NCBI RefSeq assembly: GCF_013343005.1
Contig: NZ_CP054491.1
Location: forward strand, 806,001-870,000
Origin: Candidatus Reidiella endopervernicosa
Lineage (GTDB): Bacteria > Pseudomonadota > Gammaproteobacteria > GCF-013343005
Direction of reading: 5' to 3'
DNA length: 64,000 nucleotides
A program made the translations under genes and the position numbers. The notes under the pieces were generated by a model, which saw nothing but the letters and a program-made list of their open reading frames with translations, ran no database searches and was not told the DNA's origin. Shown one piece after another: positions 19,630 to 38,542 of the stretch. How positions within the stretch are numbered: the first letter of the stretch is position 1; each line of letters opens with the position of its first letter.

Positions 19630-21837
19630 CTAGAAGATCTCCATCGGGTCGATATCGATCGACCAGCGTACCTTGCGGGCGCTCTTCTCACTCTCCAGCT
19701 GTGGAATCAGGCCGGTGAGTAACTGCTGTAGCGGAGCGCGATCGGAGGCCTGCAGCAGCAGCTGGGCTCGATAACGTCCGGCGCGGCGTGGCATCGGAGC
19801 CGGAATCGGGCCGAGTAGCATGACCTCGTTAATACCGTAGGCACTGCCAAGCTCACGTGCGCGCTCGAGGAAGGTGAAGGGGGCCTGACTATCGGTTGCG
19901 TCGGCGCGTAGCAGCGCATAACGGCAGTTGGGAGGCAGGTCGGCGAGATTGCGTTCAGCGAGTGCTGCCTCAGCGAAACGTGCGTAGCCGTCGGTTAGCA
20001 GTGAGTTGAGCAGTGGATTCTCGGGGTGGTGGGTTTGGATCACTACCTCGCCGGGACGTTCGGCACGACCGGCACGCCCCGCGACCTGAACCACCAGCTG
20101 CGCCATCCGTTCGGTGGCACGGAAATCGGCACCGTAGAGCGCCTGGTCGATATCGAGAATCGCCACCAGGGTGACGTCGGGCAGGTGGTGTCCCTTGGCG
20201 AGCATCTGGGTGCCGATCAGGATGCGCGCCTCACCGCTATGTGCCAGCGCCAGTTTCTCCTCCATAGCCCCCTTATTGCGGGTGGTGTCGCGGTCGATAC
20301 GTACATGGCCGACCTCGGGGAAGTGACTGCTGAGTGCGGTCTCGATCCGTTCGGTACCGAGCCCCAGTGGTCGCAGATCGGGGCTACCGCAGTCGGGACA
20401 CTGTTCGGGTAGCGGGCGGTGGGTGTCGCAGTGGTGGCAGCGCAGCGCTACGGCGCGCTGGTGCAGGGTGTAGTGATGGTCACAACGCGGACAGTCAGCG
20501 ATCCAGCCGCAGTCGTGGCAGAAGAGGGTGGGGGCGAAGCCACGGCGATTGAGAAACAGCAGTACCTGACCACCCTTGTCGAGGTGGTGGCGTATCGACT
20601 CGAGCAGCGGTGGTGAGAGGCCATCCTCCATCGGCAGGCTGCGAACATCGAGCAGACGTAGCTTGGGATGGATGGCGTTACCGACACGCTCTGGAAGATG
20701 CAGTCGTTTGTAGCGTTGCTGGTTGAGGTTATGCAGGCTCTCCAGGGATGGGGTGGCGGTGCCGAGTACGATCGGAATCTTGTGATGGCGGGCGCGCAGT
20801 ACTGCCAGGTCGCGGGCGTGGTAGCGGAAACCGTCCTGCTGTTTGTAGGAGAGGTCGTGCTCCTCATCGACCACAATGAGCCCCGGCCTCGCCAGTGGTG
20901 TGAATAGCGCCGATCGCGTGCCGATCACCACCGGTGCAGTGCCGCTGCTGGCGGCCAGCCAGGCGCAGAGGCGTTCGCGGTTACTCAGACCGGAGTGGAG
21001 CACCGCAAGCGCTACACCGAGACGGCGAAAACGTTCGACCAGCTGGGGCGTAAGGCCAATCTCTGGGATCAGTACCAGAACCTGCTCACCACGATCGATA
21101 ACGGCACGGATCATATGCAGGTAGACCTCAGTCTTGCCGCTACCGGTCACCCCCTCCAGGAGCCAGGCGTTAAAGCCGCTACCGGCATCGAGTACCGCAT
21201 CGACCGCCTGCTGTTGCAGCGAATTAAGATCGATCAAAGCCGTGGCGGAGCTATCGGCTGCCTCAAGGCAGGGGCGCTCGTTGACCTCGACCAGCCCTTT
21301 ATTGATCAGGGCACGCAGTGCACCGCGCCAGTCACCCTCCAGGTCGGAGAGCGCCTCACTGGTCACACCTTCAGGATGGGCCTTGAGGCGATTAAGCAGC
21401 GTGGCTTGCCGTGGGGCACGTTTCAGTTCCAGCGGATCCTTGTTGAGGCCGGCATCGGTTATCTGCCACTGCTGTTCACCGCGCACCTCAGCGGCATGAC
21501 CCTGGCGCAGCAGCACTGGCAGGGCGGTAGCGAGTGCCTCACCAATTGGGTGGTGATAGTAGTGGGCGCTCCAGACCAGCAGTTTGAGCAGCGTGGTATC
21601 AAAGAGCGGTTCCTGGTCGAGCAGATGATAGGCGCGTCGCAACCGCTTGAGTTCGAATTCACTCTCATCGGAAACCTCGACCAGCAGGCCGACCACCTTG
21701 GTCCGACCGAAGGGGATCTGTAGCCTGAGACCGGGTTGAAGCTGCGTGGTATCGCAATCCTTGGGTGGCAGATAGTCGAAGAGACGATAGAGGGGGGTGG
21801 GGACGGCGATTCGAAGGATCACGGCGGGGTCGGACAT
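19630..21837 (-). CDS. priA: Primosomal replication-restart helicase PriA
   Basis: The start was set at MSDPAVILRIAVPTPL (21837), which matches the family; the frame stays open upstream but that part is not conserved. Domains in order: 3'-end-binding domain (PTPLYRLFDYLPP), winged helix, helicase with Walker A GVTGSGKTEVYL and box DEEHDLSY, and zinc-binding cysteines (CHDCGWIADCPRCD, CHHCD, CPDCGS). Helicase motifs GTQMLAKGHHLP and VAGRAGRAERPG follow. It reloads the replisome at stalled forks. The length of about 735 residues is typical. Confidence 0.95.
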   Translation of the reverse strand: MSDPAVILRIAVPTPLYRLFDYLPPKDCDTTQLQPGLRLQIPFGRTKVVGLLVEVSDESEFELKRLRRAYHLLDQEPLFDTTLLKLLVWSAHYYHHPIGEALATALPVLLRQGHAAEVRGEQQWQITDAGLNKDPLELKRAPRQATLLNRLKAHPEGVTSEALSDLEGDWRGALRALINKGLVEVNERPCLEAADSSATALIDLNSLQQQAVDAVLDAGSGFNAWLLEGVTGSGKTEVYLHMIRAVIDRGEQVLVLIPEIGLTPQLVERFRRLGVALAVLHSGLSNRERLCAWLAASSGTAPVVIGTRSALFTPLARPGLIVVDEEHDLSYKQQDGFRYHARDLAVLRARHHKIPIVLGTATPSLESLHNLNQQRYKRLHLPERVGNAIHPKLRLLDVRSLPMEDGLSPPLLESIRHHLDKGGQVLLFLNRRGFAPTLFCHDCGWIADCPRCDHHYTLHQRAVALRCHHCDTHRPLPEQCPDCGSPDLRPLGLGTERIETALSSHFPEVGHVRIDRDTTRNKGAMEEKLALAHSGEARILIGTQMLAKGHHLPDVTLVAILDIDQALYGADFRATERMAQLVVQVAGRAGRAERPGEVVIQTHHPENPLLNSLLTDGYARFAEAALAERNLADLPPNCRYALLRADATDSQAPFTFLERARELGSAYGINEVMLLGPIPAPMPRRAGRYRAQLLLQASDRAPLQQLLTGLIPQLESEKSARKVRWSIDIDPMEIF

Positions 21838-22210
21838 GGGCGCTACTCTACACCATTTTTTTGCGCCGATGGGTGCGCGAATCTGTCTCCAGTTAGGGGG
21901 CAAACCTCATGTGAATTATTAACAAAGATCACCTAACTGTTTAACCCATATAGAAAACGCAGTTTAGTCCACAAAAGCTGTGGATAACTTTGTGGATGAA
22001 ATGGGGCAAAGGGGGTGTAGGCAGCGCTATTGTTGCATATTTGTTAAATTGGTTATTTTTTAATCAATTCTTCATATGTTAATAATATCAATATGTTATA
22101 GCGTGTTATTAAGTCGTTGGTTGAGGCTAGGGGCGTTTGTCAGTATTTTTACAGCGTCTTCCTCCTATTTGTGCATAAAGTCATATTTCAGGCTTGTGTT
22201 TTATTGGTCA
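21838..22210. other. Non-coding A/T-rich gap with two DnaA-box-like sites
   Basis: The sequence between priA and the flavin-binding gene shows no supported gene. Positions 21979-21987 read TGTGGATAA, the exact complement of the DnaA box TTATCCACA. A related TGTGGATGA follows at 21991-21999. The stretch 22040-22200 is strongly A/T rich. Two boxes without dnaA, dnaN or more repeats do not make an origin; they may be a priA regulatory site. Confidence 0.45.
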
Positions 22211-22765: not shown

Positions 22766-22896
22766 TGATCGATTCCTTATATTAGGTTATTGACGATTTT
22801 CAGATGCTAACACCAATAAAAGTCGATAGGTGTGTCAGCCGATCTCAATCAGCTGCGCTAAAGGGGGTGAAGTAACCAAATAAAAGGATCGTAAAT

Positions 22897-23432
22897 ATAA
22901 AACAGATTAAGCGTGTTGTGGCGGTGGTATTGGGTCTTACGGTGATCGGTCCGATGAGTGTGTCGGCAGATGATCTGACCCAGGGTCAGTGGATTGAGTT
23001 ACGTGGTAAGTGAGTCGATAAGCACCTAGATCGTAAAGGGGAATGTATTGATGCCCGTCTTGACCGTCGCGCCGTACATGCAGAGGCAGTGGGGAAGATT
23101 TGACTGCTGAGGATTGGTTGGAGCTGCAGCCCGACCCGAGCACCCCGAGCCGTCACGGGAGCTGGAGCGTGAGGCAACAATACGTGAGCGTATGCAGCGT
23201 TTCCGTAACCTGACCTCAGAAGAGCTTACTGCACTTCGTTATGGCTAGAACCGCTAAACAAGGCTCCCACAGGTGCGTTGTGATGCGTTGCGTAAGGCGT
23301 TGGCAGGGAATGAGTGCCGATGAGCGTGCGGCGCTTCGTGAAAAGTGGAGTGAGCGTCGAGAGCAGCGGATGTTTCAGAAGACGGTTTGGGCGGCGGTGC
23401 TGGGCGAGGTTAACAGGAAGATTGCAGGCAAT
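22897..23432 (+). pseudogene. Decayed secreted-protein gene (charged repeat / DUF3106-like)
   Basis: An ATA stands where the start codon should be, 8 bases after AAAGGA. A signal peptide follows (KQIKRVVAVVLGLTVIGP to VSADDLTQGQWIELRGK) and then a TGA. The next codons give HLDRKGECIDARLDRRAVHA, a repeat seen in small secreted gammaproteobacterial proteins. After further shifts it reads RMQRFRNLTSEELTALRYG and MSADERAALREKWSERREQR, typical of DUF3106-like proteins. No continuous frame exists. It may be two former genes run together. Confidence 0.5.
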
Positions 23433-23460
23433 AAAAAAGGCCCCTTTCGGGGCCTTTTTT
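23433..23460. terminator. Bidirectional terminator beside the dsrL-like gene
   Basis: Six A residues, GGCCCC, TTTC loop, GGGGCC and six T residues form a symmetrical stem that can act on both strands. It ends 17 bp from the stop of the dsrL-like gene, which it most likely serves. Confidence 0.9.
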
Positions 23461-23476: not shown

Positions 23477-25456
23477 TTACTCGCCCATGCCCATCTCGAT
23501 GTAGCCGGTGGGGCAGACGTCGGCACAGATGTGGCAACCGATACAGCGTGAGTAGTCGGTGTAGACGTAACGACCCAGGGTGGAGTCCTGCTTGGGGGTC
23601 TTCTTCACAGCTTCCTGTGGGCAGAAGACGACGCAGTTGTCACACTCGAAGCACATGCCGCAGCTCATGCAGCGATCGGCCTCAGCACGAACATCCTCTT
23701 CGCTCAGTGGCTGCAGACGCTCCTCGAAGTGTCCCAGAACCTCCTCAGCGTTCACATCGAGCTCATTGCGAATGTGGCGCGGTGTCTCTTCATAGTGACC
23801 AAGGAAGAGGTCATTTGAAGGGATGATCTCAAAGCGTGAGCGATCTTCGAAGTTGTGAACCGCCCAATCGTTCTCTGAGGTGCCACGTAGGCCGAGATCG
23901 ATCTCCTTGGCAAAGCCCTCCTCCTTGGAGACCTCTTCGCGGCCAGCAGCCTCAAAATTAGCGGGTGTATGGTCAGTCTCTTCGAGTTTCATCATCAGAT
24001 CGAAGTGGTGTACATCAACCTTGGGACGTTTAACCATCTCCTGCTTGTTCAGGTAGTGGTCGATACTATCGACGGCGACTGACGCCTGGCCGATCGCAGT
24101 GGTCAACAGGTGAGGACGGATGATGTCGCCTGCGACAAACAGCCCCTCCTTGCCCTTAACCTGGAAGTTGCTGTCGGAGTCGATCAGGCCACGACCATTA
24201 TTGAAATCTTCCATGCCGGATAGATCACCGGTCTGGCCGATCGCGCCAACGATCAGGTCGGCCTCGATATCCATTTCGGAACCCTCAACGATGCTGGATT
24301 CGTTGCCGTTCCACTCAACACGTACAACGCGTAGTGCCTTGGCGCGACCATCCGCGTCGAGTACGACCTCGACGGGGTTGAGGCTGCCGGTGATGGTGAC
24401 ACCTTCGTTCTCAGCCGCCACAACCTCGTGCTTGGCTGCAGGCATCTTGTCGACCGGGCGACGGTAGACCAGCTGCACCTCGGCGCCCTCTTTGGTGGCG
24501 ACGGTAGCAACATCGTGTGCGGTCTGACCGAGGATGACATTCTCAGGGCGGTCGTTCTCGTGGACGTTGGTGATGTTGCCGAGACGGCGGGCAACGGAGA
24601 CAACGTCCATGGCGGTATCACCACCACCGACAACCACAACCTTCTTGCCGACGTGCTGCAAGCGGCCGTGGTTGAATGCGGAGAGGAAGGAGACGCCGGA
24701 TACGCAGTTGGAGGCGTCACCGCCAGGGACTGGCAGGCCGCGGCCTGACTGAGCGCCGATGGTGATCAGGATGGCGTCGAACTCTTTCTCGATCTCTTCC
24801 ATGGTGACGTCACGACCGATGCGAGTCTCCATACGGGTCTCAACACCCATGTCGATGATGCGTTTGATCTCGCCATCAAGCACGTTACGCGGGGTACGGT
24901 AGCCCGGGATGCCGTAGCGCATCATGCCGCCCAGCTCGACGTGGTCGTCGAAGATGGTGGCGCCGTGGCCCTTGCGGCGCAGCTGGAAGGCTGCTGCCAT
25001 ACCGGCAGGTCCGCCACCGATGATCGCGACCTTCTTACCAGTCTCGCTATCGGGCTTGCTGAAGGTCAGGTTGTTCTCAAGTGCGTAGTTGCCGAGGTAG
25101 TGCTCAACCGAGTTGATGCCGACAAAGTCTTCGACCTCGTTGCGGTTACAGCCATCCTGACACGGTGCTGGGCAGACTCGACCCATGATGCCGGGGAAAG
25201 GGTTGGAGTCGGTGGCACGGCGGAAGGCGTACTCCTGCCAGCTCATATCACCCGCAGGCTTCTCGATACCACGAACGATACTCAGCCAACCACGGATGTC
25301 GTGGCCCGAGGGGCAGCTACCCTGACAGGGTGGGGTTTTGTGCACATAGGTCGGGCACTTGTGGCTCCAGCTCGCCTGGAAGATCTCTTCAGACCAGGTG
25401 CGTGGTGATTGATCGCCATCTTCGTAGCGGCGGAAGTTAAGAGTCTTGTCCGTCAT
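23477..25456 (-). CDS. DsrL-like NAD(P)-dependent iron-sulfur flavoprotein (GltD family with C-terminal ferredoxin domain)
   Basis: The protein has 659 residues. The N-terminal double 4Fe-4S region has cysteines in KCPTYVHKTPPCQGSCPSG (34-50) and CPAPCQDGCNRNEVE (95-109). The FAD Rossmann motif is GGGPAG at 147-152, and the NAD(P) motif [17 protein letters not shown] lies near 275. Two 4Fe-4S motifs close the chain (CMSCGMCFECDNCVVFCP and CIGCHICADVCPTG). This size and layout are those of DsrL, the partner of reverse dissimilatory sulfite reductase in sulfur-storing bacteria, rather than of GltD (about 470 residues). No other dsr gene is in the window. A related glutamate-synthase-like oxidoreductase is the alternative. 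Confidence 0.75.
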   Translation of the reverse strand: MTDKTLNFRRYEDGDQSPRTWSEEIFQASWSHKCPTYVHKTPPCQGSCPSGHDIRGWLSIVRGIEKPAGDMSWQEYAFRRATDSNPFPGIMGRVCPAPCQDGCNRNEVEDFVGINSVEHYLGNYALENNLTFSKPDSETGKKVAIIGGGPAGMAAAFQLRRKGHGATIFDDHVELGGMMRYGIPGYRTPRNVLDGEIKRIIDMGVETRMETRIGRDVTMEEIEKEFDAILITIGAQSGRGLPVPGGDASNCVSGVSFLSAFNHGRLQHVGKKVVVVGGGDTAMDVVSVARRLGNITNVHENDRPENVILGQTAHDVATVATKEGAEVQLVYRRPVDKMPAAKHEVVAAENEGVTITGSLNPVEVVLDADGRAKALRVVRVEWNGNESSIVEGSEMDIEADLIVGAIGQTGDLSGMEDFNNGRGLIDSDSNFQVKGKEGLFVAGDIIRPHLLTTAIGQASVAVDSIDHYLNKQEMVKRPKVDVHHFDLMMKLEETDHTPANFEAAGREEVSKEEGFAKEIDLGLRGTSENDWAVHNFEDRSRFEIIPSNDLFLGHYEETPRHIRNELDVNAEEVLGHFEERLQPLSEEDVRAEADRCMSCGMCFECDNCVVFCPQEAVKKTPKQDSTLGRYVYTDYSRCIGCHICADVCPTGYIEMGMGE

Positions 25457-25674: not shown

Positions 25675-26577
25675 ATGGCAAAATCCCAAGACAAGTGGCT
25701 CTTTCTGGTCGACGCCAGCGTCTACATCTTTCGTGCCTGGCACGCCTATCCCGATGACCTCTTCGACGAACAGGGGCACTCGGCCAATGCGGTACACGGT
25801 TTTGCGACCTTTTTATGCCAGTTGCTGGAGCGGGCGCGTCCCCGACATATCGGTGTCGCCTTCGATGAGAGTCTGCTGACCTCGTTCCGTAACCAGATCT
25901 ATCCCGCCTACAAGGCCAATCGTGAGCCGCCACCGCCCGAGCTGGAGCGGCAGATGAAGGCGTGCCGCAAACTAGCTGAATTAATGGGGATGACAACCTA
26001 CGCCAGCGATATCTACGAAGCGGATGATCTGATCGGCACTCTGGCGATCAAGATGCGCCCGCACGGATTTCGTACCGCAATTGTCAGTCGTGATAAGGAT
26101 CTGAGTCAGCTGCTCGCTGAACGCGACGTGATGTGGGACTTCGCCAACGATAAGAAGATTCGCCACAGCGAGGTGAAGGCACAGTATGGTGCCGAGGCGC
26201 ACCAGATCATTGATCTGCTGGCGCTGGCGGGTGATGCGGTCGATAACATTCCCGGTGTGCCGGGGGTGGGGCGCAAGACTGCAGAGGCGTTACTGGAGCG
26301 GCTCGGCTCGCTCGATGAGATCTATGAGCGGCTTGATGAGGTGGAGTTCTTCTCCATTCGTGGTGCTAAACGGGTGAAGCAGCTACTGCAGGAGCACCGG
26401 GAGATGGCGCTGATCTCACGCCAGCTCACCGCCATCGCCACCGATGCGCCGATCGAAGGAGCGCCTGAAAATCTGGAACGCAAGGAGCTCGATCAGGAGG
26501 CGCTTGAGACCTTCTGTGAGTTCCACAACTTTGATCGTTATCTGGGTGAGCGTTGTCTTGCCTCACGTCACCTATAG
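25675..26577 (+). CDS. 5'-3' exonuclease / flap endonuclease (PolA N-terminal-like)
   Basis: A 300-residue stand-alone 5' nuclease. Active-site acidic residues lie in LFLVDASVYIFRAWHAYP, AFDESLLTSFRNQIYPAYKA, YEADDLIGTLA and VSRDKDLSQLL. The helix-hairpin-helix H3TH motif is GDAVDNIPGVPGVGRKTAEA. It would cut 5' flaps or RNA primers. It is too short to be PolA and resembles the ExoIX/Xni-type or independent PolA-like nucleases. The next gene starts 9 bp downstream, so they are probably co-transcribed. Confidence 0.85.
   Translation: MAKSQDKWLFLVDASVYIFRAWHAYPDDLFDEQGHSANAVHGFATFLCQLLERARPRHIGVAFDESLLTSFRNQIYPAYKANREPPPPELERQMKACRKLAELMGMTTYASDIYEADDLIGTLAIKMRPHGFRTAIVSRDKDLSQLLAERDVMWDFANDKKIRHSEVKAQYGAEAHQIIDLLALAGDAVDNIPGVPGVGRKTAEALLERLGSLDEIYERLDEVEFFSIRGAKRVKQLLQEHREMALISRQLTAIATDAPIEGAPENLERKELDQEALETFCEFHNFDRYLGERCLASRHL

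Positions 26578-37129: not shown

Positions 37130-38542
<1,413 letters not shown>

Follow-up and report, generated by a model that had tools for sequence, protein, structure and literature searches.

DsrL proteins begin with an iron-sulfur domain, continue with FAD- and NAD(P)-binding folds and end in a double 4Fe-4S domain. In genomes, DsrL-1 together with rDsrAB serves to mark sulfur oxidation, and NAD(H) is then the preferred cofactor (PMC7596348, PMC10591310). DsrL-1A, the Allochromatium vinosum type of the dsr clusters of sulfur oxidisers, is defined by an insert of about 32 residues, a longer linker and the absence of a YRR motif (PMC7596348), the last point being restated for DsrL-1 in PMC8528874. 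DsrL-2, of the Desulfurella amilsii type, has YRR and no long insert or linker. NAD(H) is strongly preferred by the A. vinosum DsrL-1A, and NADP(H) is the sole cofactor of the D. amilsii enzyme (Loffler et al. 2020, PMC7596348). The YRR motif holds the NADP phosphate in NfnB and marks the NADP-specific DsrL-2, among which one candidate order has YNK; it is replaced in DsrL-1 (PMC7596348). Second DsrL copies are already known from C. tepidum, CG2_30_53_67 and Myxococcales SURF_8, the last with DsrL1L2 in the order dsrABEFHCMKL1L2JOP (PMC7596348), and are marked in the tree of PMC11406059. Our literature search returned, in the partial texts of the DsrL papers, no report of YRR in DsrL-1 or of a detached second dsrL of the kind described here.

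The gene analyzed here (solo dsrL) lies in a 64-kb window, the whole stretch of DNA under study, corresponding to C1:806001-870000 of a one-contig 3.45-Mb genome. Its product has the same domain plan, insert and long linker as DsrL-1A but differs from it in carrying YRR and an Ala-Met pair and in being encoded alone. With DsrL-2 it has YRR, and hence a predicted use of NADP(H), in common; by contrast to DsrL-2, it has the DsrL-1A insert and long linker and its host has an rdsr cluster with dsrEFH. In SURF_8, too, two DsrL proteins accompany one DsrAB, but the window genome encodes its second copy away from the cluster. What is new concerns the cofactor end, namely a YRR-bearing, mostly detached DsrL-1A paralogue in many genomes.

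Solo DsrL and the rdsr cluster of its host

The solo dsrL gene (23477..25456, minus strand) was identified from its open reading frame and translation, Pfam and NCBIfam matches and trees. It is intact, with an ATG start and no internal stops, and encodes 659 residues. The N-terminal iron-sulfur domain (residues 34-130; 25067..25357, minus strand) was recognized by Fer4_20 at 40-129 and by invariant cysteines 34, 44, 48, 95, 99 and 103; Pyr_redox_2 spans residues 141-458. Within this region we set the bounds of the NAD(P)-binding domain ourselves at residues 263-399 (24260..24670, minus strand), based on the alignment and a structure model. It contains the insert that is the hallmark of DsrL-1A as defined in PMC7596348, aligned at about residues 295-325 (24482..24574, minus strand); counted as residues 293-326, this insert is 34 residues long in solo DsrL and in the DsrL of its host's dsr cluster, compared to 3 in all six DsrL-1B-like rows. 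The linker likewise has 116 residues, as in the in-cluster DsrL, compared to 52-53 in the six DsrL-1B-like rows. The C-terminal double 4Fe-4S ferredoxin domain (residues 588-659; 23480..23695, minus strand; Fer4_7 dicluster at 602-651) is 86% identical to that of the in-cluster DsrL, and the 16 cysteines of the two iron-sulfur regions did not vary in an 81-row alignment. The structure model (mean pLDDT 86.2, pTM 0.85) had Nfn/Stn and GltD chains as its top PDB matches (Z 39.0 to 24.6), and no chain named DsrL was found among the matches listed.

Directly 3' of the gene is an intrinsic terminator (23433..23460, minus strand) with a 12-pair stem (GGCCCC/GGGGCC), a GAAA loop and A/T runs on either side, the 51-base stretch folding at -22.4 kcal/mol. 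This hairpin was absent from the list of a consensus terminator scanner, in our opinion probably because the T tail was counted into the stem. A promoter scan gave no signal above chance. Between the gene and a PNPOx-like ORF, at 22880-23420, there is no convincing gene, and by eye the segment has a decayed coding look. On the other side is a divergent gene for a 5'-3' exonuclease (25675..26577, plus strand), called xni from its exonuclease domains and conserved neighborhood, although it scored below the NCBIfam Xni cut-off. Solo dsrL is thus bounded by this gene and the terminator. The 13 dsr proteins of the host's own cluster gave no match in the 64-kb window (tblastn, E <= 1e-3). An ordinary gltD is present at 37130-38536 (TIGR01318, 776 bits), adjoined by a 1490-residue ORF that is gltB-like by size alone.

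The rdsr cluster of the host was found at C1:1,976,359-1,990,190, about 1.15 Mb from solo dsrL; its genes follow the usual dsr arrangement, A-B-E-F-H-C-M-K-L-J-O-P-(one gene)-N-R. Its dsrA and dsrB are two of the three PF01077 matches of the genome and, with the cluster order including dsrEFH, point to rdsrAB; the other genes have putative names, given by their place in that arrangement. The in-cluster DsrL has 665 residues and is 71% identical to solo DsrL. Elsewhere in the genome are two RuBisCO-large matches, from which the host is perhaps an autotroph, and two Si-specific NAD(P) transhydrogenases; PntB had no match in the genome. A third relative (L009, C1:2938541-2939392) has 562 residues and matches PRK12771 at 768 bits.

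By FastTree analysis, DsrL formed one clade with support 1.0 that included solo DsrL, all 32 DsrL rows (26 sampled DsrL-1A and 6 DsrL-1B-like) and none of 15 GltD-like relatives, the host's own gltD product and L009 among them. The split of DsrL-1A from DsrL-1B had support 0.578 in this tree. In an 89-row tree, which is without DsrL-2 rows, solo DsrL was nested among DsrL-1A rows with the DsrL-1B-like rows outside. These sequence relationships place solo DsrL as a member of a YRR-bearing group inside the DsrL-1A tree, distinct from an ordinary DsrL-1A. The preliminary description of this DNA had assigned the gene to DsrL by its size, iron-sulfur cysteines, FAD and NAD(P) folds and double 4Fe-4S domain, and the ORF, Pfam matches, 71% identity and tree agree with it; the strong terminator, the distance from any dsr gene and the ordinary gltD that it reported were all recovered as described above. 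It had proposed to place the protein in a phylogeny and to search the genome for dsrAB and another dsrL: the protein does not fall with the glutamate-synthase-like relatives, both genes are present, and among its options that of a second copy is borne out.

The two copies of the genome are not a recent duplication, given 29% protein divergence, a position common to several distant genomes, and use of the same codon at just 56% of identical residues. Recent gene conversion from the cluster copy was likewise rejected, as the longest identical DNA tract is 36 bp. An older exchange between the two copies may have taken place, judging by the region trees described below.

The nucleotide site and the YRR clade

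Solo DsrL has TAMD at residues 281-284 and YRR at residues 331-333 (24458..24466, minus strand) where the in-cluster DsrL has TSID and SLF; the pair A282-M283 (24608..24613, minus strand) thus follows GGGDT in place of Ser-Ile. Aligned with the solved NfnA (9n5u), GGGDTAMD of solo DsrL corresponds to GGGNTAMD, and LVYRRPVDKMPA to VVYRRSKSEMPA. The combination TAMD...YRR was also read in the host's own gltD product and in L009, and together YRR and A282/M283 give the signature of NADPH-type NfnB/GltD enzymes. NfnB and GltD, the NADPH side of the bifurcating transhydrogenase and of glutamate synthase, have their fold as well as this signature in common with solo DsrL; they are without the DsrL linker and have other partners. 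Solo DsrL is an intact DsrL in which the DsrL-1A layout is combined with NADPH-type residues, and the YRR is suggestive of NADP(H) use rather than proof of it.

A282, M283 and Y331 were found in all 37 YRR rows and in 0, 1 and 0, respectively, of 182 others. When clade-diagnostic residues were called at 85%/15% thresholds in columns filled in both groups, seven were obtained (A282, M283, Y331, R333, P339, W382 and M387), and all seven are in the nucleotide domain. The first, unfiltered list had five further positions at 506-516, in a linker stretch missing from most other rows. The same held for two nested control clades of 96 and 98 leaves, whose 7 and 6 diagnostic residues were all in the nucleotide domain, which appears from these alignments to be often the variable part of DsrL anyway.

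At full length the YRR copies form one clade. With motif columns removed, a FastTree of 230 rows placed all YRR rows in a clade of 42 (support 0.952) that also holds one YHR, two SRE and two SWE rows, and an IQ-TREE analysis of 89 rows gave the YRR clade 98/97, compared to 78 in the preceding quick search. Of the 89 rows, 37 came from the clade of 42, after removal of short sequences and of those more than 90% identical; 46 came from the 182 others, and 6 were outgroup rows. In the quick tree the SLF types branch first and the SRx types adjoin the YRR clade, so that YRR looks to have been gained once inside DsrL-1A; the YRR-bearing DsrL-1A paralogues are most simply read as being of one origin.

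FastTrees of separate regions were less uniform. Residues 263-399 placed solo DsrL in the YRR clade (42/42, 0.993), whereas residues 400-659 paired it with its own in-cluster DsrL (0.98), as did the protein minus the nucleotide domain (0.937), and residues 1-262 paired it with L312 (0.948). For the rest of the protein, 3 to 4 label changes are required to account for the YRR group, compared to 1 for this domain; the full-length clade support thus leans on the nucleotide domain, a point that counts against the reading preferred below.

Several DsrL proteins do not follow the simple pattern. Three in-cluster members of the YRR clade have SWE or SRE (L121, L126 and L137), as if a paralogue had replaced the cluster copy and then reverted, and in G079 the in-cluster DsrL has YRR and the detached one SRE, both being in the YRR clade (L120 and L142). 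The in-cluster DsrL of three further loci (L242, L250 and L040) has TRR or ARR; these may possibly be intermediates with mixed cofactor use.

Distribution, neighborhoods and partners of the YRR copies

Loci were collected from 56 relatives, 80 of at least 549 confirmed matches in public genomes (a list biased towards kin of solo DsrL), 28 host-genome handles, 369 class genomes (122 with DsrL), 398 phylum genomes (16 with a match) and region fetches. This census gave 277 ORFs, 234 of them distinct; seven were under 50% identity, leaving 227. YRR was present in 38 of the 227 (37 distinct, one fragment being counted twice). No dsr gene other than dsrC was found within 8 kb of the sequence covered for 30 of the YRR ORFs, and 8 (7 distinct) had such genes. 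Among the 189 non-YRR ORFs, dsr neighbors were found for 182 and none for 7. Flanks of the 30 solo YRR loci were at least 3 kb on both sides in 11 and at least 1.2 kb in 22, so that 'solo' is a weaker call for the other 8. A YRR copy was present in at least 16 of the 122 DsrL genomes of the class survey (a count that omits G095, G188 and G284, with fragment matches only, and G212, with a whole match), and 15 of these 16 gave a match to a second DsrL as well. Three SLF-type DsrL proteins (L122, L228 and L237) also had no dsr neighbors with 2.8 kb or more covered on each side; the in-cluster DsrL of these genomes is ARS or SRS.

The position of solo dsrL is common to several distant genomes. It is surrounded in the window by fn3k, xni, priA (19630..21903, minus strand; a marker of conserved chromosomal position assigned by domains and synteny) and argS. 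All four were found at L315; three at L313 (fn3k, xni and priA), L106 (xni, priA and argS) and L312 (fn3k, priA and argS); fn3k and xni at L070, L079 and L087; and one at L074 (fn3k), L081 (xni), L067 and L308 (priA). L316 has fn3k and priA in a different order. We regard xni as part of the conserved neighborhood and not of solo DsrL function. In six loci of one subclade (L070, L074, L081, L106, L313 and L315), pntAA is directly downstream on the same strand, 57-225 bp away as measured on stop-to-stop frames, and is followed by pntAB and pntB wherever the contig extends far enough; the pnt family assignments were checked for L070 and L315. L079 and L087 have the same type of neighborhood, their contigs ending 295 and 11 bp after dsrL. 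In another group of YRR loci, adenylate kinase recurs at 8 loci and UPF0047 at 7, and no general operon partner of YRR copies was detected among the loci examined. PntB was not associated with the YRR copy across the DsrL genomes (8/16 vs 65/106, p = 0.42), and by this lack of association a role as stand-in for the membrane transhydrogenase was ruled out.

A YRR copy co-occurs with dsrA and a further DsrL in most genomes examined. The dsrA model was scored by its cut-off only, since at E <= 0.001 it gave hits in 8 of 14 control genomes as well as in 26 of 27 hosts; over the cut-off it was found in none of the controls and in 22 of the 27 hosts, with a contig-edge fragment in one more (G060). 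Of the remaining four hosts, G062 had no hit, and the hits in G064, G070 and G073 were weak, at about 1e-12 to 1e-14. In all four, the contig of the other DsrL starts 2.2 to 4.3 kb ahead of that gene; with a gene order like that of the window genome, where dsrA ends 5.2 kb ahead of dsrL, dsrA would lie beyond the contig edge. Two or more DsrL matches were present in 23 of the 28 genome handles, two of which (G001 and G061) look like one genome and one of which (G080) is without a YRR copy; the second match is partial in G058. The DsrL concerned (L175) is upstream of dsrJOP-N-R, matches over residues 320-665 only and has dsrAB elsewhere on its contig, which points to a break or misassembly. Detached copies with YRR or YHR occurred in 21 genomes, of which 20 gave a further DsrL match and 16 had dsrA over the cut-off, with a dsrA fragment in one more. 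Thioalkalivibrio denitrificans ALJD has two dsrAB loci, each with a dsrL, plus a solo YRR copy (L096, the solo copy, with L178 and L179).

In four genomes (G066, G076, G077 and G081), the sole DsrL matched has YRR and is inside the dsr cluster, with the K-L-J slot shown for L090. A tandem pair with YRR in the second L occurs in the cluster of G666, dsrK-L(SLF)-L(YRR)-J-O-P (L209 and L225); in gene order this resembles SURF_8. From these five genomes, the YRR type can apparently serve rDsrAB.

Each domain of the detached copies was also used to rank 182 DsrL proteins by similarity in 30 of 31 same-genome pairs, the second dsr locus of T. denitrificans being left out. The in-cluster DsrL of the same genome was in the top 18 for 15 of the 30 pairs by the ferredoxin domain and for none by the nucleotide domain. 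Median ranks of this DsrL were 23 for the ferredoxin domain, 50 for residues 400-587, 61.5 for the N-terminus and 120 for the nucleotide domain (paired Wilcoxon 3e-5 between the ferredoxin and nucleotide domains, ignoring relatedness). It thus ranks high by the N-terminus and the linker too, a further point against the reading preferred below.

A candidate link between rDsrAB and NADP(H)

We infer, with a probability of about 0.6, that solo DsrL is an old paralogue of DsrL that connects NADP(H) with the rDsrAB also served by the in-cluster copy, where cofactor use and docking are read from motifs and genomic company. The protein would be the usual electron wire, from iron-sulfur domain, FAD and NAD(P) site through a flexible linker to two 4Fe-4S clusters, and would dock on the rDsrAB of the cell as the in-cluster DsrL does, with a nucleotide site of the NADP(H) type. 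One sulfite reductase would then have two DsrL adaptors, the in-cluster copy to NAD(H) and the solo copy to NADP(H). The preliminary description had raised a relative with another electron partner; this may hold at the pyridine-nucleotide end, with NADP for NAD, and probably does not at the DsrAB end. As to direction, there is about an even chance that NADPH is the donor and electrons would pass towards rDsrAB, in sulfite or DsrC reduction; we favour this over NADP+ reduction for biosynthesis, to which we give a smaller though appreciable weight.

An alternative is that, while sulfur is being oxidised, electrons pass from rDsrAB to solo DsrL, which would make NADPH for CO2 fixation and biosynthesis. 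The same anatomy and motif would serve, and the two RuBisCO-large matches of a perhaps autotrophic host and its lack of a PntB match would suit it, but NADP+ is the harder acceptor, as argued in PMC7596348. The two Si-specific transhydrogenases mean, moreover, that NADPH need not come from DsrL, and the pnt genes adjoining the gene in the sister subclade would be partly redundant for NADPH supply, so that we consider this anabolic role unlikely.

Solo DsrL could instead be a free NADPH:ferredoxin-type oxidoreductase that no longer serves rDsrAB, being encoded with no dsr gene and having its own terminator; GltD and NfnB relatives use many partners. By contrast, none of the 27 examined hosts of a YRR copy is clearly without dsrA, the YRR type is inside the dsr cluster in several genomes, no filtered diagnostic residue is outside the nucleotide domain and the ferredoxin domain resembles that of the host's own DsrL, making loss of the rDsrAB partner decidedly improbable. 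We give still less credence to a plain redundant second DsrL in which YRR is without consequence. C. tepidum has two nearly identical dsrL genes (PMC7596348) and five members of the clade are without YRR, but A282, M283 and Y331 are kept throughout the YRR rows and are nearly absent elsewhere, solo DsrL is 29% divergent from its own in-cluster copy, and its place is conserved in several distant genomes. A non-Dsr glutamate-synthase-like protein was rejected: its top NCBIfam hit, the broad PRK12771 'NAD(P)-binding protein', also matches L009, but it is the best model for the in-cluster DsrL too, and the DsrL clade holds solo DsrL and none of the GltD-like relatives.

For the DsrL family, the motif rule does not hold once DsrL-1A includes an NADP-type group, carried by no fewer than 16 of the 122 DsrL genomes of the class survey. 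Where a genome has both copies, the direction of electrons through DsrL becomes testable with two paralogues in one cell. Beyond the link of solo DsrL to NADP(H), we tentatively raise, as a rather doubtful extension, a two-adaptor switch in gammaproteobacterial sulfur oxidisers, in which rDsrAB would run oxidatively via the in-cluster NAD-type DsrL and reductively via a separate NADP-type DsrL, in one lineage beside a pmf-driven transhydrogenase. If such a switch is true, sulfite reduction or sulfur disproportionation may also be within the reach of a 'sulfur oxidiser' gene set.
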